The notes beneath the pieces are model-generated. The model was not told where the DNA came from. It did not search any database and saw only the letters and a program-made list of their open reading frames with translations. Of a stretch of DNA of 10,548 nt, positions 1,599-10,548 are shown one piece after another. How positions within the stretch are numbered: the first letter of the stretch is position 1; each line of letters starts with the position of its first letter. The stretch lies in assembly GCA_020438595.1 (NCBI GenBank), contig JAGQUI010000059.1, positions 1 through 10,548 of the forward strand, read 5' to 3'. The position numbers and the translations under genes are program-made. The DNA is from Propionibacteriaceae bacterium. Its GTDB lineage: Bacteria; Actinomycetota; Actinomycetes; Propionibacteriales; Propionibacteriaceae.

Positions 1599-2537
1599 CT
1601 AGGCCTTGTCGATTCGGTCGATCCAGGTGTTCAGGGTCGTGATCGCGTCATCGAGTTCCACGTGGAGGTCGGCCGACTCGGCGGCTCTGGCGTAGTCGTC
1701 GACCCAGTGGGGGTGGGACGTCAGTTGGGGTGGCCATGCTCGGGGTGTTCTTCCGAGGGCCTGGGCTTCGGTTGCTCGTGCCGTGAAGATGTCGACGGCC
1801 GCGTCCCGGATCTCTGCCCGCGTGGGCGAGCCCTCATCCTCAACGAGGGTCTTGAGCAGCAGCAGGTCCACCACGTCGCGGGCGCGGTCGTTCACCGAGT
1901 GCGGCGGGTCGTGCGGGTCGGAGGAGGCGTGCAGCTTCTGTGCGATTTGGTAGCGCATCGCCAGACCGACAAGAACATCGGGGCCGGGCAGGCCGAACCC
2001 GGCAAGCTCCGGTGCGGGGAACGCCTCCCCGGCCTCCCCGGCGGACCCCTCGTCCGGCGAGAGCTCGACCTGCACCCGTCGCCAGGTCACCCCTCGCAGC
2101 GTCAGCGTCACCTGGAAGCGACGCGGCTTGACCAACCGCGCCGGAGTGTCGATGACCTCGATCTCGCCGCGCCGGAACCCGAGCGGTCCCCACGGCTGGG
2201 ACAAGGTGGCGTCCAGATCGGCGAGGAAGGCATCAATGTCACCCAGAACCAGGCCGTCCAGGTCCTTGGTCGCCCGGGTGGGCATCGCCAGCCGGTGCTG
2301 AAGCATCGTGCCGCCCTTGAGCAGGAACCGGCTCTGCCCGTCAGCTGCCACCGCCCGCTGGAGCGCGGCCGTCACGATCGTTGACGCGATCAGCCAGCCC
2401 AACCGTCCACCACCCTCGACACCCAGGTCTCTCTCTGCCTTGGTGATCCAGTTGTTCAGGACGGTCGCCGAGTTCGGCTGCTTCCCCTTCGGGATCAGCG
2501 TGCGAAGCCGGGAACTCAGATCAGGACTGTCGGACAT
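1599..2537 (-). CDS. Type IV toxin-antitoxin toxin, AbiEii-family nucleotidyltransferase
   Basis: A 312-residue AbiEii/AbiGii (MenT-like) toxin. These are DNA polymerase beta-type nucleotidyltransferases; characterised mycobacterial members block growth by adding nucleotides to tRNA 3' ends, and AbiE systems can act as phage abortive infection. Visible motifs are, in order: KGGT at 74-77 followed by DLD at 92-94 (motif I, metal-binding Asp92 and Asp94); VELS near 157-160 (motif II); QIAQKLHA at 197-204 with Lys201 (motif III); and RARDVVDLL at 218-226 (motif IV). The Glu usual four residues before the motif III lysine is Gln197 here, which may be a subfamily trait. All other key residues are present, so the enzyme looks intact. 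The start ATG at 2537 lies inside the end of the antitoxin gene (17-bp overlap), the usual AbiE bicistronic order, antitoxin first. The target RNA is not known from sequence. Confidence 0.92.
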   Translation of the reverse strand: MSDSPDLSSRLRTLIPKGKQPNSATVLNNWITKAERDLGVEGGGRLGWLIASTIVTAALQRAVAADGQSRFLLKGGTMLQHRLAMPTRATKDLDGLVLGDIDAFLADLDATLSQPWGPLGFRRGEIEVIDTPARLVKPRRFQVTLTLRGVTWRRVQVELSPDEGSAGEAGEAFPAPELAGFGLPGPDVLVGLAMRYQIAQKLHASSDPHDPPHSVNDRARDVVDLLLLKTLVEDEGSPTRAEIRDAAVDIFTARATEAQALGRTPRAWPPQLTSHPHWVDDYARAAESADLHVELDDAITTLNTWIDRIDKA

Positions 2538-3093
2538 AGCGCGCTTCCAGCAGCTGAGTGAGCCCCTCCAACTCGGCGGCGGGGACCAGGCCGATACGGG
2601 CCGAGCGTTCGATCGCCTGGCGGATCAGGTAGGTGGGCACCCCCGAGGCCAGGCACTGCCGGATCGCCGTCGCCGCCGTCACAGTGGGGATCCCCTCCCA
2701 CCAGGTCACCTGTTCCGGCAGCAAGTCCTGATGGTGCACGGTGTAGCCGTGCGGGATCTGCCGGGTGATGCGGCGACGGGCAGCGACGGTCAGGTGGATC
2801 CGGTCGGGATTGATGTCGCTGATCTCCCACGCGTCCAGCGCCGAGTCATGACTCACGCAGGCCTCCGGGAAACCCGTCCACAGCACGGCCTGCATGAACG
2901 AGTCATACTGTGTCGCCGGCACCTGGGGCACCCGGAACAGGCCGCGAGAGATCTTCTCCAGGCGGTCACGCCGGACCATCATGCTCAACGACGCCAGAGA
3001 GACCCCTGACTCGACGGCCTGGGCCGACGTGACCAGGCCATGCTGGTCGACGGCGATCTCCCGCAGCCTTTCCAGGTCAGTCAGCACACTCAT
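2521..3093 (-). CDS. Type IV toxin-antitoxin antitoxin, AbiEi-family regulator
   Basis: A 190-residue AbiEi antitoxin. The N-terminal part (about 5-55, from LERLREIAVDQHGLVTSAQA to SRGLFRVP) is the winged-helix domain typical of AbiEi. In it, GLVTSAQAVESGVS gives the first helices, and the basic stretch MVRRDRLEKISRGLFRV ends in the wing. The C-terminal half contains HDSALDAWEISD and IHLTV, as in the AbiEi C-terminal domain that serves the antitoxin function. Known AbiEi proteins bind inverted repeats in their own promoter and repress the operon. Here an inverted repeat sits directly upstream. The ATG at 3093 has no Shine-Dalgarno sequence but has a -10 box placed for a leaderless transcript. 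It overlaps the toxin gene by 17 bp, indicating coupled expression. In type IV systems the antitoxin need not contact the toxin protein. Confidence 0.9.
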   Translation of the reverse strand: MSVLTDLERLREIAVDQHGLVTSAQAVESGVSLASLSMMVRRDRLEKISRGLFRVPQVPATQYDSFMQAVLWTGFPEACVSHDSALDAWEISDINPDRIHLTVAARRRITRQIPHGYTVHHQDLLPEQVTWWEGIPTVTAATAIRQCLASGVPTYLIRQAIERSARIGLVPAAELEGLTQLLEARYVRQS

Positions 3094-3099
3094 GCATGA

Positions 3100-3117
3100 A
3101 GATTAACACGACGTTAA
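3100..3117 (-). promoter_or_regulatory. AbiE promoter -10 box with overlapping operator palindrome
   Basis: Read on the minus strand, TAATCT (plus positions 3105 down to 3100) matches the TAnnnT -10 consensus and lies at -12 to -7 relative to the AbiEi ATG. This is the position expected if the mRNA starts at the A of the ATG. Overlapping it is a perfect inverted repeat, TTAAC-GTCGT-GTTAA (3103-3117). No good -35 box is visible at 16-18 bp spacing. The inference is that AbiEi binds the palindrome and covers the -10 box, giving autorepression. Confidence 0.5.
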
Positions 3118-3240
3118 GGTATGCGTGCTGTGGCAGCTCATCCAACCAGGACCGGCCGTGCAGTCCTGAGGCTGATCCTGAACCCCCGGGACGGGGGCCG
3201 GCTCGGGCACCAGGCTGTCCGAACCCAGACGGCTTGTCTT

Positions 3241-3431
3241 GGCCAGCAATTGTCTCAATACGCCAGCGTTCGCGGCCGTACGCAGGGGTCCAGTCGAACG
3301 GTGAAACGGCTAGCCACGGGCATGTCCGGACAACGGCGAACACCCATCCGCCCAGTTGGAAAGCGGGTTGGGTTCACGCCCTCACGAGTTCGAATCTCGT
3401 ATCCTCCGCCACCTGACTAGGGGAAACGCTC
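3241..3431 (+). repeat. Direct repeat copy A (tRNA-Ser attachment-like)
   Basis: By hand alignment this segment matches 8208-8398 at 164 of 191 positions with no insertion or deletion. The left part (3241-3350) differs at 24 positions, while the right part (3351-3431) differs at only 3. The run 3362-3409 is fully identical. The right part is the tRNA-Ser 3' portion plus 20 bp downstream, ending inside the left arm of the hairpin at 3422-3462. The left arm is not tRNA; it reads openly as codons PAIVSIRQRSRPYAGVQS, see findings. The preceding spacer (3118-3240) contains only a 5-bp hairpin at 3183-3197. Confidence 0.85.
3354..3411 (+). pseudogene. 3' fragment of a tRNA-Ser gene, copy A
   Basis: The sequence reproduces the 3' half of an actinobacterial serine tRNA from the anticodon loop on. 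TTGGAAA (anticodon GGA) is followed by the long variable arm GTTGGGTTCACGCCCTC. The T arm is ACGAG-TTCGAAT-CTCGT (3384-3400). The acceptor strand ATCCTCC (3401-3407), a G, and an encoded CCA (3409-3411) complete it. The 5' half is missing: no GGAGGAT to pair with the acceptor strand occurs in the preceding 100 bp, and the base before the anticodon loop cannot pair. It is a fragment, not a working gene, as expected of an attachment-site remnant. Confidence 0.75.
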
Positions 3432-3462
3432 CGACCGCGAGGTTCGCGGGAGGAGCGTTTCC
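3422..3462. terminator. Strong two-part hairpin after tRNA-Ser fragment A
   Basis: The arms GGAAACGCTCC (3422-3432) and GGAGCGTTTCC (3452-3462) pair perfectly over 11 bp. Inside them CCGCGA (3435-3440) pairs with TCGCGG (3444-3449) over a GGT loop. This is placed like the natural terminator of the tRNA-Ser gene. It may act in both directions and also end transcripts coming from the right. A short T-run (3477-3481) follows at a distance. Confidence 0.7.
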
Positions 3463-3724
3463 GGCGTCTTGGGCAGATTTTGGCCCAACTGCCAGGCTGC
3501 TGATCCGGCCGGGGGCGGACAGCCACGGACGGGCGCGAACGACTTGGGGGATTCGAGGGCTTGGTGGACGCTTGCTCGGCGAGAAGCGGGCGCTGTTCCC
3601 GTGCTGTGAGTGGCGACCGGCCCAGATCAGCCTCAAGAAAGGACTGCCGCATGGATCGTCGTCGATCCCGCTGACGTGTGGCTCTGCGCACCCACGACCT
3701 GGAGGGATTGGCCAGCAAGGGGCG
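3463..3724. other. Spacer between hairpin and PRD regulator
   Basis: I see no gene here. A perfect 6-bp hairpin, GGATCG-TCGT-CGATCC (3653-3668), lies about 57 bp beyond the stop of the minus-strand PRD regulator and could be its terminator; in that direction it is followed by a pyrimidine-rich stretch. An AAAGGA plus ATG at 3651 opens only a 7-codon frame, which I do not count as a gene. Confidence 0.4.
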
Positions 3725-5629
3725 TTAGCCGGGTTTGCGTGAGCGGGAGAAGTGGTCTGCGAGGTAGTCGCTGAACGCCTCGAAGTCGCGCTTGGCTCGG
3801 AGCTCGCCGAACAGTTGGGGGTCACCGAGGAGCTGGACGAGCTGTTGGTAGAACCAGGTGAAGTCGACCAAGTCGTCCTCGTTCAGCGCCAGCATGAGTA
3901 CGAGGGCCACCTCGGTGTCGCCCCACCTGACGGGGGCTCGAGGGATGAGCACAGCGATGACGGCCTCGTTGGCGATGAATTCCATCGAGTGCGGGACCGC
4001 GAATCGGTGTGCGAACGCGGTGGAGGAATAGGCCTCCCGCACCCGGACGCTCTGGGTGTAGCTGGTGGGTACCTTGCCCGTTGCGATGAGTTGCTGGCAG
4101 AGGAAGTCGATCACCTCCTCGGAGTCTCTGTGCGGGGTGTCGGCGAAGAACAGTCGGGGGTCGAGGAAGCGGGCGAGCGCGGATCGGGTCCGGGTCCTGA
4201 GGTGCGCGTTCCTGATTTCGGAGAGCTGGGTGCGCACCTTCTCCAGGTCGAGGTCGGAGCAGATGGCGCTGATCTCGGCGACCGGACGCTGGCCGGTACC
4301 GCTTCCGATCGTAGATACGACCAGTTCGCAGTCGGTCGCCTCGGCCGCGGCGATGGTCGACACCACGTCCACGATGGCGATCTTCTCGCCGAACTGCTCG
4401 ACCATGCGTGCGAGGAGCCACTCCTGCAGGGTCTGGTAGCGGGGGCACACCAGTGTCACCGCGATGGTGTCTGCGTCGTCGCGCTGGCTGGCGTACAGGC
4501 CGAGGTAGATCGCAAACAGACTGATTTCGTCGTCGCTGACCTGCACGCCGAGCGCGCTGGAGATCTGGTGGGCAAGGTAGACCGCGACGTCGTATAGGTA
4601 CGGCGATCGTGTGCGCAGAGACTCCCGCAGGCCGTTGCGGAAGTACACCAGTGTGGCCTTGCGAGCGAAGAACCTCCGAGTGTGCTCGATGATGCTGGCC
4701 ACGAGCCGGTCCCGCTGGGCCTGGAGGTCGAAGTGCCGGATGCAATCCTCGACAGCGCGGGTCACCACCGCGCCGATCCCGGCCTCATCGGGGAGTTCCC
4801 CGGTCCGGTCGGCGGCCAGGCCGCTGTCCAGCACCACCCAGACGAGACGGCGCAGATAGACGCGATCGCCGGGGCTGATCATGCGGGTGGGAAACGCCCG
4901 GACGATCTCCTCGACCACCTGCTCAGACGGCGTTCGGTCCCCGTTCGGCGCCGGTTCGACGTGGGCGGCCTCGACGGGGTGGTCGGCCCGTTGCAGGCAG
5001 ATCGCCAGGTTCACCACCAGGTTCTGCCATGCGATGTCGTCGGTGTGGGGACGCTCGTCACCGAGTCCCCGCGCAAGCGCGGCCTCGACCTCGTCGAGGT
5101 CGACCTCGGGCAGGAGCCGGCGCAGCTTCCACTCCGCACCGATCGAAGCGTTGCCCGCCTCTCGGACCAACCCGCCGAGCACCCGACGCCGGTCCAGCTC
5201 GGACCCGTCGACGGTGATCCTCGATCCGCTCACCGAGACGGTCAAGCCGTGCGCGCTCACCCGGGAGGCCAGCCGGGCTGTGGCAGAGCGCACCGCTGAC
5301 TCGCTCAGGTAGCAGTCGCGGGCAACGTCGTAAATGTCGGCTGTGGTGAGATCAAGCAGATGGACGAGGAGTCGCTCGTCGTCCTCGAGCACGCTGGAGA
5401 CCGGCGATGCCGCGCCGAGCACCTGCCCGTAGGCAACCAGATTGAGGGAGTAACCACCGGCGTCGGACTCGATCAGCGGGATGCCGCGGAGGCGATTGAT
5501 CCGGCCGATGTCGTAGCGCAGCGTGCGAGGGCTGACGCCGAGCAGGTCTGCGAGATGGGCGCCAACGATCGGACGCCCGGCTTCGCGGAGGACCTCGATC
5601 ACCAGCGTTTCGCGCTCGGTAAAGCTCAC
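3725..5629 (-). CDS. PRD-containing transcriptional regulator with EIIB- and EIIA-like domains (MtlR/BglG type)
   Basis: A 634-residue DNA-binding activator of the MtlR-like family, controlled by PTS phosphorylation. The domains in order are: N-terminal helix-turn-helix (about 5-60, with AHLADLLGVSPRTLRYDIGRI); a second helix-turn-helix (about 85-140); PRD1 (about 165-280); PRD2 (about 290-382); a Gat-type EIIB-like domain starting at VTLVCPRYQT with Cys395; and an EIIA type-2 domain (about 495-630) with FAVPHSM, His547 being the phospho-acceptor. In PRD1 the usual His of the HLxxxxxR pattern is Asn207. In PRD2, LAHQ keeps His354, but the usual LH late in the domain reads LYA, so Tyr replaces His. 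I chose the GTG at 5629 because AAAAGGAG lies 9 nt before it and the HTH begins at once. ATGs at 5653 and 5749 are in frame but poorly supported and would add a proline/glycine-rich leader. The gene is divergent from the PTS genes, which it probably activates. Confidence 0.9.
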   Translation of the reverse strand: MSFTERETLVIEVLREAGRPIVGAHLADLLGVSPRTLRYDIGRINRLRGIPLIESDAGGYSLNLVAYGQVLGAASPVSSVLEDDERLLVHLLDLTTADIYDVARDCYLSESAVRSATARLASRVSAHGLTVSVSGSRITVDGSELDRRRVLGGLVREAGNASIGAEWKLRRLLPEVDLDEVEAALARGLGDERPHTDDIAWQNLVVNLAICLQRADHPVEAAHVEPAPNGDRTPSEQVVEEIVRAFPTRMISPGDRVYLRRLVWVVLDSGLAADRTGELPDEAGIGAVVTRAVEDCIRHFDLQAQRDRLVASIIEHTRRFFARKATLVYFRNGLRESLRTRSPYLYDVAVYLAHQISSALGVQVSDDEISLFAIYLGLYASQRDDADTIAVTLVCPRYQTLQEWLLARMVEQFGEKIAIVDVVSTIAAAEATDCELVVSTIGSGTGQRPVAEISAICSDLDLEKVRTQLSEIRNAHLRTRTRSALARFLDPRLFFADTPHRDSEEVIDFLCQQLIATGKVPTSYTQSVRVREAYSSTAFAHRFAVPHSMEFIANEAVIAVLIPRAPVRWGDTEVALVLMLALNEDDLVDFTWFYQQLVQLLGDPQLFGELRAKRDFEAFSDYLADHFSRSRKPG

Positions 5630-5660
5630 GGCATCGTGCTCCTTTTCGATCATCGTTCCC

Positions 5661-5707
5661 TGCGGGGGAGCGGCCCCGCAACCAACGCCTTGCCGCCCCC
5701 CCGGCAA
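5661..5707. promoter_or_regulatory. Two adjacent hairpins in the divergent regulator-PTS control region
   Basis: The 176-bp spacer between the regulator and EIIB genes holds two perfect inverted repeats in a row. The first is TGCGGGG-GAGCGG-CCCCGCA (5661-5680, 7-bp arms). The second is TTGCCG-CCCCCC-CGGCAA (5690-5707, 6-bp arms). The motif CGATCATC also occurs twice in the same orientation, at 5648-5655 and 5743-5750. Either set could be operators for the PRD regulator, or a leader structure of one of the two transcripts. No confident -35/-10 pair was found. Confidence 0.4.
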
Positions 5708-5805
5708 ACGGGACTCTTGTGGGGCCCGGCCCATGAGGACGACGATCATCTCGGCACCCCGGTTCAGCGCTGACCGTCAGGGGTAGCCCAGCCGAGAGGA
5801 ACTCG

Positions 5806-6081
5806 ATGAAACGCGTACTGATCATCTGCGGCACAGGCGTCGCGACTTCGACCGTTGTCGCGACCAAGGTGCGTGACCACCTCGAGGAGATCGGCCTGGC
5901 CGCGAGCGTCAGCCAGGGCAAGGTGATGGACCTGCTCCACGGCGACGTCGACGCCGACCTCATCGTCGCCACGACCGAGGTGCCGGCAAACGTGGGCGTC
6001 CCCGTCGTCGCCGCGCTTCCGCTGTTGATCGGTATCGGCGAGGAACAGGTCTTCGAAGAGATCGACAACCACCTGAAGTAG
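5806..6081 (+). CDS. gatB: PTS galactitol-family EIIB component
   Basis: A 91-residue cytoplasmic PTS EIIB protein of the galactitol type. The N-terminus LIICGTGVATSTVV is the phosphocysteine loop of GatB-like proteins, with Cys8 as the residue that takes phosphate from EIIA and passes it to the sugar at EIIC. The length is normal for a stand-alone GatB. The rest shows the alternating strand/helix pattern of the family (VDADLIVATTEVP, VPVVAALPLLIGIGEE). The ATG at 5806 follows GAGAGGA at 6-7 nt. It is the first gene of a three-gene operon, 74 bp before EIIC. The symbol states the family; the true substrate could be galactitol, another hexitol or a pentitol, since no metabolic gene is linked. 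Confidence 0.93.
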   Translation: MKRVLIICGTGVATSTVVATKVRDHLEEIGLAASVSQGKVMDLLHGDVDADLIVATTEVPANVGVPVVAALPLLIGIGEEQVFEEIDNHLK

Positions 6082-6155
6082 CCGCCGGCTACTCCATCGG
6101 GGCCCGCTGCAACCGCGGGTACCCACTGCTCGCTCGTCCAAATCAAGGGAGAGTC

Positions 6156-7571
6156 ATGGAATCCGTTCTTGCTGCAATCTCGCAGTACCTGACCCAACTC
6201 GGGCCCACTGTGGTCCTGCCGATCCTGATCACCATCTTCGGGGTCGCTCTCGGGCTCAAGTTCACCAGGTCGTTGCGTGCGGGGGTGACGATCGGTGTCG
6301 GCTTCATCGGGATCAACCTCGTCATCGGCCTTCTCGGTGCCCAGGTGGGCCCGGCCGCGCAGGCAATGGCCGACAACTTCAACGTGAGGTTGTCCATCAT
6401 CGACGTGGGCTGGCCCTCCTCAGCCGCGATCGCCTTCGGCTCGACCATCGGCGCCGTGATCATCCCGGTCGGGCTCCTGGTGAACATCGTGCTGCTGTTC
6501 ACCGGGCTGACCCGCACCCTCGACATCGACCTGTGGAACTACTGGCACTCCGCGCTCATCGGCGCCCTCGTCGCGGCCATCACCAGCAACTTCTGGCTGG
6601 GCATCCTGGCCGCCTCCATCCACCTCGCGCTCGTCCTGTCCATGGCCGATATCACCGCGCCCGTCGTCCAGAAGTACTTCAAGCTGCCTGATATCTCCCT
6701 GCCCCACGGAACCTCGGCCGCCTACGGCCTGCTCGCCATGCCTCTGGACTGGCTGTTCGAGCGGATCCCCGGCCTGAACAAGCTGGACGCCACCCCGGAG
6801 GGCATCCAGAAACGGTTCGGCATCTTCGGCGAGACCCTGATGATGGGCCTCATCCTCGGCCTGATCCTAGGCGTGCTGGCCTACCCGTTCACGGACCCTG
6901 CCAACAACGTGGTCTCCATCCTCACCCTGGCGATGTCGCTGGCTGCGGCGATGTTCCTGCTGCCCCGGATGGTGGGCGTCCTGATGGAGGGTCTGATGCC
7001 GGTCTCCGAGGCGGCCCGCAAGTTCGTCCAGAAGCGGTTCCCCGGACGCCAGTTCTACATCGGCCTTGACTCCGCGGTAGCCGTCGGCCAGCCGTCCGTC
7101 ATCGCGACCTCGCTGATCCTGGTCCCGGTCACGCTGCTCCTCGCGCTCGTGCTCGCGCCGCTCGGCAACCAGGTCCTGCCGCTGGTCGACCTCGCCACCA
7201 TCCCGTTCATCGTCGCGATCATGGTGGCCGTCTTCCGCGGCAACATCGTCCGCTCCGTGATCGGCGGCGCGATCCTGATCGGCGCCGGCCTGTTCATCGC
7301 CACCGCTATCGCCCCGACCTTCACCAAGGTCGCCGTGGATTCCGGCTTCGAGTTGGGCGAGGGCCAGACGGTGATCTCCTCCCTCGTGGACGGCGCCAAT
7401 CCGTTGACCGGCCTGTTCATGTGGGCGTCGAGTGGGGGAGCGGCGGGTGTGATCGGCCTGTCGGTCGTCGGGCTCGCCTTCGTTGTCGCAACCAAGTTCT
7501 GGCTCGATCGCCGTGCACGCCAGCAGCAGGAACAGCAGAGCGCAGCCGAGCAGGAGGCCGAGCATGCCTGA
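6156..7571 (+). CDS. gatC: PTS galactitol-family EIIC permease
   Basis: A 471-residue integral membrane protein of the EIIC-Gat family (ascorbate-galactitol superfamily), the transport channel that carries the sugar alcohol while it is phosphorylated. The family opening is clear: LGPTVVLPILITIFGVALG followed by FTRSLRAGVTIGVGFIGINL (residues about 13-59). Many further hydrophobic segments follow, with the conserved stretch ISLPHGTSAAYGLLAMPLDW near 185-204 and FYIGLDSAVAVGQPSVIATS near 300-319. The C-terminal tail is polar and glutamine/glutamate-rich (RRARQQQEQQSAAEQ), as expected of a cytosolic end. It is slightly longer than E. coli GatC, mostly because of this tail. The ATG at 6156 follows AGGGAGAG. 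It is translated between EIIB and EIIA in one operon. Substrate specificity is not readable from sequence. Confidence 0.93.
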   Translation: MESVLAAISQYLTQLGPTVVLPILITIFGVALGLKFTRSLRAGVTIGVGFIGINLVIGLLGAQVGPAAQAMADNFNVRLSIIDVGWPSSAAIAFGSTIGAVIIPVGLLVNIVLLFTGLTRTLDIDLWNYWHSALIGALVAAITSNFWLGILAASIHLALVLSMADITAPVVQKYFKLPDISLPHGTSAAYGLLAMPLDWLFERIPGLNKLDATPEGIQKRFGIFGETLMMGLILGLILGVLAYPFTDPANNVVSILTLAMSLAAAMFLLPRMVGVLMEGLMPVSEAARKFVQKRFPGRQFYIGLDSAVAVGQPSVIATSLILVPVTLLLALVLAPLGNQVLPLVDLATIPFIVAIMVAVFRGNIVRSVIGGAILIGAGLFIATAIAPTFTKVAVDSGFELGEGQTVISSLVDGANPLTGLFMWASSGGAAGVIGLSVVGLAFVVATKFWLDRRARQQQEQQSAAEQEAEHA

Positions 7572-7611
7572 CCGCGCCGGAGCCCACTGAGCAACTGGCG
7601 AGGATCCCAGG

Positions 7612-8109
7612 ATGTCCGAAGAAGTTGCACCGGAGCTGCTCCCCGGCTGTGCCCTGCATCGGGTCACGGCCAGGGACAGCGACGAGTTGCTCACCAAGAT
7701 GGCGGCTGCCGTGGTCGAGAACGGCCACGGCAAGCCGTCCCTGATCGATGCCGTGCGCGAGCGCGAACACAAGTTCCCGACCGGACTACCCACGCGCGTG
7801 CCGTCGGCCATTCCACACACGGACGCGATCCACATCATCCACGCCGGGTTCGCGGTGGCCACGCTCGCCAAGCCGGTGATGTTCGCTCAGATGGGGGGCT
7901 CGGGAGAGCAGTTGCCCGTGGAGATCGTGGTGCTGCTGTGCATCACTGAACCAGCAGAACAGGTTGGGGCGTTGCAGCAGGTGCTCGCCAAGCTCCGCGA
8001 CGACGCCGCGGTGGAAGCAGTCGTGGGCCACGACGATCCAGCCACCTTCGCCGCAGCCGTGCAGAACTGGCTCGATACCGAGCGGGCCACGGTGCAGGGT
8101 TCACCGTGA
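7612..8109 (+). CDS. gatA: PTS EIIA component, galactitol/fructose (type 2) family
   Basis: A 165-residue cytoplasmic PTS EIIA protein. VPSAIPHTDA holds the phospho-acceptor His69, which takes phosphate from HPr and passes it to Cys8 of the EIIB. FPTGLPT before it and VATLAKPVMFAQMG after it are typical of GatA-like proteins and distinguish it from mannitol-type EIIA. It starts 40 bp after EIIC; only a weak GAGG stands before the ATG, so translation may depend partly on EIIC. It completes the B-C-A operon; EI and HPr must come from elsewhere in the genome. The repeat copy B begins 98 bp after its stop. The EIIA-like domain of the divergent regulator is a separate, more distant relative. Confidence 0.92.
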   Translation: MSEEVAPELLPGCALHRVTARDSDELLTKMAAAVVENGHGKPSLIDAVREREHKFPTGLPTRVPSAIPHTDAIHIIHAGFAVATLAKPVMFAQMGGSGEQLPVEIVVLLCITEPAEQVGALQQVLAKLRDDAAVEAVVGHDDPATFAAAVQNWLDTERATVQGSP

Positions 8110-8157
8110 CGCTTCTCGACGGTGCGGGGCCGGTGAAGAAGCAAGCCGCATGGTCGG

Positions 8158-8177
8158 GTGCGGACGTGGGTCCGCGC
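8158..8177 (+). terminator. Possible terminator of the PTS operon
   Basis: GCGGAC-GTGG-GTCCGC (8160-8175) is a perfect 6-bp stem with a 4-nt loop, extendable by a T-G and a G-C pair, about 50 bp after the EIIA stop. No T-run follows, so the role rests on position and stability. Confidence 0.4.
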
Positions 8178-8207
8178 GGTGGCGGAGGCTAGCGCCGGTT
8201 CGGCTTT

Positions 8208-8398
8208 GGCCAGGAATTGTCTCAGTTCGCCGCCGTTCAAGGCCGTTCGCCGGAGTCCAATCGAGCGGTGAAACGGCTAGCCATGGCCATGTACGAACAG
8301 CGCTGTACGACTGTCCGCCCGGTTGGAGAGCGGGTTGGGTTCACGCCCTCACGAGTTCGAATCTCGTATCCTCCGCGACCTGACTAGGGGAAACGCTC
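8208..8398 (+). repeat. Direct repeat copy B (tRNA-Ser attachment-like)
   Basis: This is the partner of 3241-3431 (164 of 191 positions equal, no gaps). The match stops abruptly at 8398, ten bases into what in copy A is the left arm of the terminator hairpin. After this the flanks are unrelated, so copy B has no such hairpin. The left arm reads openly as PGIVSVRRRSRPFAGVQS, very close to copy A at protein level. The stretch 8399-8557 to its right holds no gene; GGAC recurs at 8478, 8492, 8502 and 8512. Confidence 0.85.
8321..8378 (+). pseudogene. 3' fragment of a tRNA-Ser gene, copy B
   Basis: Same structure as the fragment in copy A: altered anticodon loop TTGGAGA, variable arm, T arm ACGAG-TTCGAAT-CTCGT (8351-8367) and acceptor strand ATCCTCC (8368-8374). 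The terminal CCA has become CGA (8376-8378). There is no 5' half. The T arm and variable arm are identical to copy A, which suggests the copies derive from the same tRNA-Ser and that only the attachment core was kept. Confidence 0.7.
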
Positions 8399-8536
8399 GT
8401 CCTTGTTGACGCGTAAGGCGCGCCCGCTTGGATCTGGGCCACGATCTAGTCTCATCTGGGACTCACCAGGCAGACCCGGACAACCCACGGCGGACGCCCA
8501 CGGACACCGGTGGACAGGCCACAGTCCCGTCATGAA

Positions 8537-8557: not shown

Positions 8558-8956
8558 ATGGAAGTTGCAGCCATTCTTGCCGCGGTCCTGCTCGCCGCCG
8601 TCGCTGCTGTCCAACTCGCCCTCGTGTTTGGTGCCCCGTGGGGCGACCATGTCTACGGCGGCAGGGCGGAGACGGACAACGGACGCCTCGCGCCCCGATA
8701 TCGGGCGATGAGCGCCGCAGCTGTCCCGCTCCTCCTCGCGGCCGCGGCGATCATCCTGTCCCGGGCCGGCGTCGTGTCGTGGTTCGGGTCCGACGGCTGG
8801 GTGGCGGTGGCGTCGTGGGTCGTCTTCGGCTATCTGGTGCTCAACACCATCGCCAACGTCGCATCGACGAGCCGGATCGAGCGGTTCGGGATGGGATCGC
8901 TGTCGGCGGGTGCGGCTATCTGCACCCTGGTCGTTGCGCTCTCGGACACTGACTGA
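8558..8956 (+). CDS. Small four-helix membrane protein of unknown function
   Basis: A 132-residue hydrophobic protein with four likely transmembrane helices: about 3-24 (AILAAVLLAAVAAVQLALVF), 52-70 (AAAVPLLLAAAAIILSRAGV), 80-100 (WVAVASWVVFGYLVLNTIANV) and 110-128 (GMGSLSAGAAICTLVVALS). A polar loop, GAPWGDHVYGGRAETDNGRLAPRYR, joins helices 1 and 2. The GAPWG-x-x-x-GG loop and the SRIERFG segment before the last helix are features I recall from uncharacterised actinobacterial integral membrane proteins; no function is known to me. It stands alone, after the tRNA-Ser repeat B and before a diverged third copy of that repeat. Amino acid use is typical of a real membrane protein, so I consider it a genuine gene. 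Confidence 0.8.
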   Translation: MEVAAILAAVLLAAVAAVQLALVFGAPWGDHVYGGRAETDNGRLAPRYRAMSAAAVPLLLAAAAIILSRAGVVSWFGSDGWVAVASWVVFGYLVLNTIANVASTSRIERFGMGSLSAGAAICTLVVALSDTD

Positions 8957-9066
8957 TCGTCCTGACCGCGCCCCGACAGGGCCGCGGCACGCTGAAAGCT
9001 GGCGCGCGGTGGTGGGAAGCCGACGACGGGCCACGGGCGAAGGGGCCAGCAGTAGGTCCGGACTCT

Positions 9067-9142
9067 GGTCACGAACTGTCTCAGTTCATCGTCGTCCGGG
9101 GCCCGTTCGACGGAGTCCGGTCCGGGAGTGAAGCGGCCGGAC
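9067..9142 (+). repeat. Diverged third copy (C) of the repeat's left arm
   Basis: GGTCACGAACTGTCTCAGTT (9067-9086) aligns with the start of copies A and B, and similarity continues through GTTCGACGGAGTCC and GTGAAGCGG to about 9142. Roughly 70 percent of positions match copy B, and one base is inserted near 9103. The tRNA-Ser portion is absent. It reads in the same frame, VSVHRRPGP, then after the one-base shift FDGVRSGSEAA, paralleling copy B (VSVRRRSRP, FAGVQSSGETA). This looks like a decayed member of the same repeat family. Confidence 0.5.
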
Positions 9143-9446
9143 GGCAGCGAATCTGCGCGGACGACTCAGGGTGTCTTGCGGTCAATGGGACGGAGCAGTT
9201 GGCCACGAACGCGGGCGCCGTGGACAAGGGGATGGCCGGGCTCCCTGCCCGGCCAGGCGGATCAGCTCACTCATCTCCAGGATTCAGGAGACAAACGATG
9301 CCCCGGGGCCGCCAAGCCGGCCACGCGGAGTTCGCCGCGTCAACCACCGTCGACGCGTAACGCCCGACACCGCCCGGCCGGCCAGCCGCCGTGGAGCGCA
9401 ACCGGGCCGAAAACCACCAAAGGCCACCCAGCCAGGAACAGCCAAG
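9143..9446. other. Spacer before the P-type ATPase with one strong hairpin
   Basis: The stretch has no long gene. It holds a perfect 8-bp hairpin, GGCCGGGC-TCCCT-GCCCGGCC (9234-9254), without a T-run, and the possible tiny gene at 9298-9360. The hairpin could terminate the minus-strand ATPase transcript late, or lie in the leader of the tiny gene. No clean terminator hairpin was found close to the ATPase stop. Confidence 0.4.
9298..9360 (+). CDS. Possible 20-residue peptide with a good ribosome binding site
   Basis: The ATG at 9298 is preceded by CAGGAG with 7 nt spacing, better than for several long genes here. It encodes MPRGRQAGHAEFAASTTVDA and then TAA. I do not recognise it. It lies antisense to the region downstream of the P-type ATPase and after the hairpin at 9234-9254. 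It may be a leader peptide, a microprotein, the relic of a longer gene or chance. Confidence 0.25.
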   Translation: MPRGRQAGHAEFAASTTVDA

Positions 9447-10548
9447 CTAGCGGGCCCGGGCCGGCGCGACGGCCTCCTCGACCGTCGGACGCGCGGCGAC
9501 CGCGTGATGGCGGCGCAGCGCCGAGTCGATCTCGACGACCGCCATGACGAACATCGTCAGGACGATGCATGCCAGCCACTGCCAGCCCGTGAGCGAGGTC
9601 ACGCCCACCCAGTCCTGCAAGAACGCGAGCTGCGTCGAGAGAATGAGGAACACGATCGGCCACACCATGAGCTGAACGCCCTTGCCCCACGGCGCGCGCA
9701 GCCCCGATTCCGGATCGCGACGCAGCTGCAGACCGGTGGTCAGCGTCGAGAGCGCGACGATGACGAACGCCATGGTCATGGGGGCAGACGGGTCGGTCGG
9801 GCTGAGCTGATCCGAGCCGAGCACGAGCGGAACCATCGCGGCCATCAGCAGCGCGACGCCATAGATGAGCCACCGCGCAAGGCTCGCCGCCGACGCGATG
9901 CCCGCCTTGGGATCGCGTGGGGGAAGCTTCATGACGCCCTCGCTCGGAGGCTCCATGATGATGACGATCACGGCGAACAGCGCGAACGCGAAATTCAGGA
10001 TCAGCACCATCCCAGGCGTGAGCGCCACGCCTTCGTTGATGTTGAAGATGCTCGCGACCAGGAAGATCAGGATGAGCCCGATCAGTTGTGCCATCTGGAA
10101 CGTGAGGTAGTTGCGGATCTTCTGATAGACCGCGCGACCCAGGCTCACCGCCTTGACGAGCGTCGCGAAGTTGTCGTCGGTCAGCACCAGCTTCGCAGCC
10201 TGCTTGGTGACCTCGGAACCCGAACCCATCGCGACACCGATCTGTGCCTGCTTGATCGCTGCCGCGTCGTTGACGGCATCGCCCGTCATCGCGACGACCT
10301 CGCCGCGGTTCTGCAGGCGCTGCACCAAGCGCAGCTTGTCCTGGGGAGTCACCCGGCCGAACACCGACAGATCGTCAAGCCGCGAGTCGACCTCCTCGTC
10401 GCTGAGCGCCGCGAACTCGGCGCCGGACAGTCCTTCGCCCTGGAGGCCGAGCTCGTGACCGATCGCTGCTGCCGTGACGACGTGATCGCCGGTGATCATG
10501 CGCACCGTGATGCCCGCCGCTTGCGCCTCCTCGACGGCCACCTTCGCC
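9447..10548 (-). CDS. Cation-transporting P-type ATPase, C-terminal part (gene continues past the right edge)
   Basis: About 366 C-terminal residues of a P-type ATPase are visible; the frame runs open through the right edge, and the GTG at 10541 is an internal valine. Numbering from it: MITGDH (17-20) and VTPQDK (64-69) belong to the phosphorylation domain. MTGDAVNDAAAIKQAQIGVAMG stands where MTGDGVNDAPALKxAxIGIAMG is usual, with both Mg-binding Asp kept (Asp88, Asp92). Six membrane helices follow (M5 about 150-168, M6 178-196, M7 219-240, M8 254-275, M9 290-310, M10 322-345), the layout of P2/P3-type ion pumps. M6 reads LILNFAFALFAVIVIIMEPP instead of the calcium/sodium pump form with N-x-x-T-D, and M5 also lacks the usual acidic ligand. 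The pumped ion is therefore uncertain. It ends in a tail rich in Ala, Val and Arg. It is convergent with the small membrane protein gene. Confidence 0.9.
   Translation of the reverse strand, partial: AKVAVEEAQAAGITVRMITGDHVVTAAAIGHELGLQGEGLSGAEFAALSDEEVDSRLDDLSVFGRVTPQDKLRLVQRLQNRGEVVAMTGDAVNDAAAIKQAQIGVAMGSGSEVTKQAAKLVLTDDNFATLVKAVSLGRAVYQKIRNYLTFQMAQLIGLILIFLVASIFNINEGVALTPGMVLILNFAFALFAVIVIIMEPPSEGVMKLPPRDPKAGIASAASLARWLIYGVALLMAAMVPLVLGSDQLSPTDPSAPMTMAFVIVALSTLTTGLQLRRDPESGLRAPWGKGVQLMVWPIVFLILSTQLAFLQDWVGVTSLTGWQWLACIVLTMFVMAVVEIDSALRRHHAVAARPTVEEAVAPARAR

Follow-up and report, generated by a model that had tools for sequence, protein, structure and literature searches.

A phosphotransferase operon between two tRNA-Ser junctions in a Propionibacteriaceae genome: probable cargo of an integrase-less element

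The PTS operon and its flanking junctions

A contig of a Propionibacteriaceae bacterium (JAGQUI010000059.1, assembly GCA_020438595.1), analysed here over 10,548 nucleotides and called the window throughout, carries a phosphotransferase system (PTS) operon between two direct repeats. The repeats lie at 3239–3431 and 8206–8398, are 193 nt each, and align without gaps at an offset of 4,967 bp with 166 of 193 positions identical (86%), in agreement with the gapless pair at this offset described in an earlier, sequence-only reading. Each consists of an element arm of about 117 bp joined at the anticodon loop to the 3′ half of a tRNA-Ser(GGA) gene, as in an attR-type attachment (att) junction. Identity between the copies rises at this loop: to the left of it 92 of 117 positions agree, and in the part beginning with the loop 74 of 76 do. 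The loop starts at 3356 in junction 1 and at 8323 in junction 2, and the tRNA-Ser 3′ portion that had been noticed in both copies is the tRNA-Ser(GGA) half from this point onward. No intact tRNA was found anywhere in the window by ARAGORN. The order in the window is AbiE unit, PTS unit, and DUF3995 unit, and the features of the PTS unit and its junctions are listed below. R1 denotes a sequence model made from seven junctions, including window arm copies 1 and 2.

3236..3355, plus strand: P-type arm, copy 1, of the AbiE unit to the left (R1 match 3236–3371, 100.4 bits, E 1.2e-29, in part a self-match)
3250, plus strand: arm-type site TTGTCTCAATAC of arm copy 1 (arm-site matrix, weak)
3356..3411, plus strand: tRNA-Ser(GGA) 3′ half, att core, junction 1 (100% identity with the tRNA-Ser(GGA) of genome G002 across 54 nt)
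3412..3467, plus strand: tRNA trailer and terminator hairpin (common to intact tRNA-Ser(GGA) genes of relatives; hairpin by eye)
3725..5749, minus strand: BglG-type transcription regulator (Pfam HTH_11, PRD, and an EIIA-like domain; the actual start codon may lie further inside the reading frame)
5806..6081, plus strand: PTS EIIB (PF02302, PTS_IIB)
6156..7571, plus strand: PTS EIIC, EIIC-GAT family (PF03611, E 1e-89; TIGR00827 below its cut-off)
7612..8109, plus strand: PTS EIIA (PF00359, PTS_EIIA_2)
8202..8322, plus strand: P-type arm, copy 2, right end of the PTS unit (R1 match 8202–8338, 103.2 bits, in part a self-match)
8217, plus strand: arm site TTGTCTCAGTTC of arm copy 2 (top-ranked arm-site match of the plus strand)
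8323..8377, plus strand: att core of junction 2, the 3′ half of a tRNA-Ser(GGA) gene (95% identity with the tRNA-Ser(GGA) of G002 across 62 nt)

Pfam assignments bear out the earlier view that the repeats bracket a complete PTS module of regulator, EIIB, EIIC, and EIIA. The galactitol models of NCBIfam match the PTS proteins only below their cut-offs. Third-position GC of the PTS genes is 0.82–0.91, similar to that of other genes in the window. At the right end of the unit, the P arm and the core are kept (8202–8377), so that an attR is retained. The left end consists of core, tRNA half, and terminator (3356–3467), and no arm site is recognised after them. The window's tRNA half and trailer are 91–92% identical over 104–110 nt to those of two relatives, G166 and G150 (genomes, contigs, and loci carry our G, C, and L codes).

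A search of genome contigs with EIIC returned 71 loci, the highest identity (89% at the amino acid level) being to HGW-Actinobacteria-5 (L024). The whole operon of L024 is colinear with ours, with 81% DNA identity across window positions 3736–8075, but is set between other genes. When the repeats and arms were searched in the EIIC loci in hand, including L024, no match was found at E 1e-3. The comparison with relatives called for by the sequence-only reading has thus given a closest operon with different flanks and no repeat, and the operon therefore occurs in relatives without the repeats. No EIIC was found in viral contigs.

Type A and type B ends in related genomes

The arms at the two window junctions belong to a family. 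R1 was run on a set of 198 Propionibacteriaceae genomes, including G002 and G005 (Tessaracoccus sp. SD287, L004), a family to which the window itself appears to belong. The search gave 36 rows, of which 16 were inspected and the remaining 20 are all weak. Eight strong sites (72.8–99.7 bits), all with the same arm, occur in six genomes: two each in G125 and G160 and one each in G166, G122, G150, and G157. Because five of the eight went into the model, their scores do not count as independent; the sites new to it are those of G125:C181, G150, and G157. The arm is joined to a tRNA-Ser 3′ half at seven of the eight, with only the loop region present in G122. The half is of the GGA type in G166 and, judged by its loop, of the GCT type at the other joined sites, the second site of G125 being cut by the contig end. 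Together with the two junctions of the window, these sites make up what we call type A (ten sites). G149, which keeps the arm start and has no tRNA half, is counted in neither type A nor the type B described below, and weak rows in G172 and G193 were dropped as having no tRNA piece.

In the searches made, subtype A was found in this family only. When R1 was run at class level (394 genomes, E 1e-6), no A site other than that of G160 emerged; of four weak matches there, three were viewed, and one of these has no tRNA half. The arm pattern had no match in genome contigs or viral contigs, further arm patterns had none in viral contigs, and junction 2 had none in phage records. The A arms share a block, GTGAAACGcCTAGCCACGGCCATGTACGGACA in its majority form, that is absent from B arms. 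Mean pairwise arm identity is 0.61 within A, 0.48 between A and B, and 0.54 within B (pCM32, introduced below, included). In the window this A-specific block lies between the arm sites and the core at 3301–3332 and 8268–8299, and it is kept across genomes despite differing cargo; it could serve, for instance, as an excisionase site or a promoter.

Type B comprises 17 weaker full-length R1 matches (16–30 bits), six from the family and eleven from an order-level sample of 391 genomes. A tRNA-Ser 3′ half follows 16 of the 17 sites, with none recognised for G231a. Genes for integration (int), replication (rep), and FtsK-type transfer (tra), the gene set of an actinomycete integrative and conjugative element (AICE), are present between att sites in G104, G109, G107, and G417. 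Both G104 and G109 have integrase, RepSA, and FtsK-like genes; for G109 the FtsK match falls short of the Pfam cut-off, and one stop is present in each of the integrase matches of G109 and G103. An AICE-type integrase stands on the element side at 14 of 17 B sites versus none of 10 A sites. These element-side B sequences, whole, partial, or broken, are 49–72% identical to the G104 integrase. The B sites without an integrase are those of G118 (where the contig ends soon), G231a, and G283a.

Six plasmid records match the tRNA half, and one of them was examined. This record, the circular pCM32 of Saccharopolyspora endophytica, which we take to be an AICE, matches at the core. In its attP a doubled GTCTCA motif is present on both sides of the tRNA-Ser half, beside an integrase that is 48.6% identical to that of G104. 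The first arm site, a putative and degenerate one in the window, lies 116 nt from the anticodon loop at both window junctions, and the same distance in pCM32 is 115 nt.

We also noted further duplications at tRNA-Ser genes. At locus L232 (G283:C18, 9626–14901), 5.1 kb separate two type-B junctions, and a broken integrase lies in between; the arrangement resembles a small decaying tandem element. In L120 (G002:C16) and L121 (G002:C4), tRNA-Ser 3′ duplications of 32 and 25 bp at 100% identity start 3′ of the anticodon loop. An integrase of another cluster lies near one of these, apparently a second integrase type that uses the same tRNA.

The motif GTCTCAnTT is the putative arm site of the integrase. 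Its doubled form, GTCTCAnTTnnnGTCTCAnTT, has 23 matches in 17 of the 198 family genomes, and the reversed pattern has none. In 21 of the 23 cases the doubled motif adjoins a tRNA-Ser gene (GGA, GCT, or CGA) or its 3′ half; in the remaining cases (G100 and G139) only an anticodon-loop piece follows. Left-end sites start 66–105 nt after the tRNA-end tag, where this tag was found, and right-end sites end 98–100 nt before AAGCGGGTT of the anticodon arm. The distance from arm to tRNA end is 146–151 nt at ten other junctions. With an arm-site matrix made without window sequences, the matches ranked 1, 2, 3, and 5 on the plus strand of the window are 8217, 9076, 8447, and 3250, which are the four expected places: junction 2, the third arm, the left end of the third unit, and junction 1.

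Type-A elements with both ends in hand are the PTS unit (4,967 bp) and those of G166 (4,298 bp), G160 (1,391 bp), and G157 (7,546 bp). The elements of G166 and G157 run from an intact tRNA-Ser to a junction of arm and tRNA half, an arrangement that had been predicted; the G160 element lies between two junctions. No trace of integrase or RepSA was found in any of the four, versus an integrase, whole or broken, in 12 of 12 bracketed type-B elements (exact probability 1/1820, calculated by hand and uncorrected for relatedness). Outside these counts are the elements of G104 and G103, which span two loci, and a 312-bp remnant in G125 without a right arm. The tRNA-to-tRNA brackets G157 536–2767, G117 1728–4894, and G265 15306–19865 were dropped as not being elements.

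The cargo of type-A units is varied. Near the A junctions of G160 are an Unstab_antitox antitoxin with a partner open reading frame (ORF) and a YhcG/DUF1016 nuclease in a unit interrupted by an insertion sequence. G166 carries a TIGR04255 protein and HATPase/STAS-like proteins with a DrmA-like PADLOC match, G157 carries Hypoth_Ymh and a weak TPR match, and AbiE is the probable cargo to the left of window junction 1.

Several other loci show related arrangements. In L166 (G125:C181, 3000–7235), genes for NanE, a PTS EIIC/EIIB protein, and a CAT-RBD/PRD antiterminator precede another type-A junction, a second sugar-transport module beside a type-A end; the left boundary is outside the contig. 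The 312-bp unit, at 1583–2000 of L132 (G125:C189), consists of a tRNA-Ser half, an intact left arm pair, and then the tail of a PIN-type toxin (by eye), and continues into another tRNA-end piece and left arm. Candidates for further integrase-less units are L267 (G151), L268 (G164), L269 (G150:C26), and L271 (G107, 126 kb), in which an intact tRNA-Ser (GCT; CGA in G107) is followed by a left arm pair, with no AICE-type integrase in the fetched DNA.

Origin of the PTS unit

The repeats are very likely attR-type junctions left by successive insertions at a tRNA-Ser(GGA) gene, with the PTS operon as the cargo of one element that lacks an integrase and stands in tandem with at least two others. Each site-specific insertion at the one gene would leave behind an arm P and a tRNA-Ser 3′ half. 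The ends appear to follow the attP plan of the tyrosine integrase of a pSAM2-like AICE or of pCM32: two arm sites (GTCTCAnTT at a 12-bp step), a stretch of about 115 bp up to the crossover point in the anticodon loop, the tRNA 3′ half, a terminator, and two further arm sites. The PTS unit matches this plan in core, half tRNA, one arm site, and spacing; the first site of the pair is degenerate at both window junctions, and none was recognised on the left of the unit. The integrase of another element, acting either in trans or, if that element is a neighbour, in cis, would insert such units. This picture accords with two suggestions of the sequence-only reading: the repeats do resemble attachment junctions of tyrosine integrases, known to integrate at tRNA 3′ ends, here at tRNA-Ser, and serial island insertions would explain the layout, given junctions at the same tRNA.

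No recombinase was found in the cassette itself, in line with the sequence-only reading. Among the nine main ORFs of the window (smaller ORFs were not tested), Pfam identifies no recombinase, and it names the four main ORFs of 3412–8205 as other than integrase or transfer genes. Searches of the window by tblastn with the integrase, RepSA, and Tra of G104 and the integrase of pCM32 gave no match. The int, rep, and tra set of an AICE was not found in the PTS unit, nor was the integrase beside the att site that marks an autonomous tRNA island such as an integrative and mobilizable element or a prophage. For the A genomes, 42 of 49 PF00589 places were clustered (5 of 12 for G122 and all for the other five). 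No cluster covers all six genomes. A loose non-Xer cluster (≥35% identity, single linkage) covers G122, G150, G157, G160, and G166 and not G125; within it, a G166/G157/G160 group is 94–96% identical and a G150/G157/G166 group 60–71% identical. Proteins that we label Xer-like cluster across five genomes. With neither a six-genome cluster nor a close relative of the AICE integrase, we infer that another element supplied the integrase by which the units were inserted. A fragment at 1–760 of L132 (minus strand), which is not in the PF00589 listing, resembles by eye a tyrosine recombinase of another type.

Several observations count against this interpretation. The junction 1 site scores 5.8 bits, below a plus-strand match at 4935 and below three minus-strand matches (7.6, 6.6, and 6.0 bits), and both window pairs have a degenerate first site. 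There is no recognisable P′ arm of the PTS unit in 3410–3620, where the best match ranks 26th on its strand, and the intact tRNA-Ser(GGA) lies outside the window. Left ends of A units, read after A junctions or their tRNA genes, are uneven: in ten cases, the site is doubled in five (G166, G157, G160, and G125 twice), single in three (G150, the second of G157, and the third unit of the window), and missing in two (the PTS unit and the second of G160). Complete A elements number only four, and several A contigs end near repeats. A close relative of the G104 integrase is encoded in none of the seven A-arm genomes (E 1e-30; G149 included), and the acting enzyme could possibly be of another type. 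Because no left arm motif was found, the PTS unit is now probably mostly a relic within the array, and its current mobility is doubtful.

That the PTS unit is a decayed AICE, in which a deletion from just past the terminator took the left arm, integrase, rep, and tra, is plausible, if a little short of probable. The AICE integrase lies directly beside the left arm, and it is exactly this side that the PTS unit is missing. Decay is seen elsewhere as well, in the broken or partial integrases of G117, G108, G137, and G287, and PMC9513070 describes AICEs in decay whose cargo is flanked by direct repeats. However, the type-A units of G160, G157, and G166 keep both arm pairs and yet show no trace of an AICE-type integrase, and the A-type end differs from those of AICEs. 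Exchange of units by homologous recombination between repeats of about 190 bp, without any integrase, seems improbable: repeats of this length and 86% identity would in general be enough for low-rate recombination, but this would not explain why the repeats divide at the anticodon loop, why arm sites come in pairs, or why several tRNA-Ser genes show the same layout. We consider it highly improbable that the operon is ancestral chromosome among tRNA pieces scattered by chance. The third-position GC noted above would fit with such an origin, but the most similar operon, that of L024, lies between unrelated flanks without a repeat, and junctions of arm and half tRNA recur in other genomes with different cargo.

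An extension of the preferred interpretation, serial insertion of integrase-less units, would make type-A units non-autonomous integrative cassettes. The conserved end of about 120 bp and the tRNA-Ser half would then be a portable insertion site that acquires operons singly (defence, toxin-antitoxin, or sugar transport) and that integrases of passing elements insert and shuffle at tRNA-Ser; Propionibacteriaceae would thereby have an integron-like array for gene capture that needs no resident recombinase. We regard this extension as rather unlikely.

Known systems and neighbouring units

A cis-mobilizable element (CIME) is an element that has lost its integration and transfer genes and has kept attL and attR (excerpt of PMC5704250). 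The PTS unit seems to work like one, and since its left end does not show all of the features expected we use the term CIME-like. In the excerpts at hand, Streptomyces provides a CIME, TR1, in accretion with an integrative and conjugative element (PMC8369830) as well as tandem AICEs, defective AICEs (DAICEs), and remnants with direct repeats (PMC9513070), and Frankia provides tandem AICEs (PMC3218068). The cassette had been thought an unusual form of cargo; it is less so, as integrase-less att-bounded islands (CIMEs and decayed AICEs) are, by these excerpts, already in print. Like CIMEs as excerpted (ICESt1 relatives and TR1), the units here are att-bounded, lack integration and transfer genes, and stand in tandem at one site; unlike them, they form a run of several small units whose ends belong to a conserved subtype of their own, no AICE-type integrase was found in the same genomes, and no left arm was found for the PTS unit. 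With AICEs (pSAM2), pCM32, and DAICEs they share the tRNA-Ser core, the arm-site pairs, and the spacing, whereas four complete A units have no trace of int or RepSA and the A arm has a block not seen in B arms. Integrons hold arrays of small cassettes, each with cargo and a recombination site. The present array is similar in this respect, but its site is half a tRNA with an AICE-like arm. The ssrA islands of Dehalococcoides are also tandem islands at one RNA gene, and 15 of 31 reportedly lack an integration module; they differ in the use of a serine recombinase at ssrA and in cargo that includes many dehalogenase genes (excerpt of PMC3146451).

A type-A family of ends on units without an integrase trace is not described in the excerpted parts of these accounts of CIMEs, AICEs, and ssrA islands, and no description of this PTS unit turned up in the literature searched (most subscription journals being outside the search). 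The interest of the locus rests on the type-A family and not on the PTS genes. Should integrases of conjugative elements recognise type-A ends, cargo units as small as 1.4 kb could ride on those elements with no mobility gene of their own. Such units would be missed by programs that look for islands and need an integrase to call one, as Islander does according to the excerpt of PMC4383910. The attP plan of arm sites, spacing, and crossover is, moreover, concrete and testable for a family of tRNA-Ser integrases.

The units on either side of the PTS unit have the following features, the AbiE genes being the likely cargo of the unit to the left of junction 1.

1599..2537, minus strand: AbiEii toxin (PF08843; PADLOC AbiEii, E 2e-129)
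2521..3093, minus strand: AbiEi antitoxin (PF13338; PADLOC AbiEi, E 2e-67)
8447..8458, plus strand: P′-type arm site TAGTCTCATCTG, single rather than doubled, at the left end of the third unit (third-best arm-site match of the plus strand)
8558..8956, plus strand: DUF3995-like membrane protein carried by the third unit (PF13160 match weak, below cut-off)
9066..9145, plus strand: third arm, which has lost its tRNA half and closes the third unit on the right (R1 25.4 bits, E 3e-6)
9076, plus strand: arm site CTGTCTCAGTTC of the third arm (arm-site matrix, second-best of the plus strand)

The arm site at 8447 sits 81 nt past the tRNA-end tag. A further arm-site-like match, CTGTCTCAGTGG, is located at 1523–1534 on the minus strand between a hydrolase gene and the AbiE genes, in the opposite orientation and with no tRNA piece seen nearby. 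To the right of the third unit, either chromosomal sequence or a possible fourth unit carries the C-terminal part of a cation P-type ATPase (9447–10541), which runs off the end of the window.

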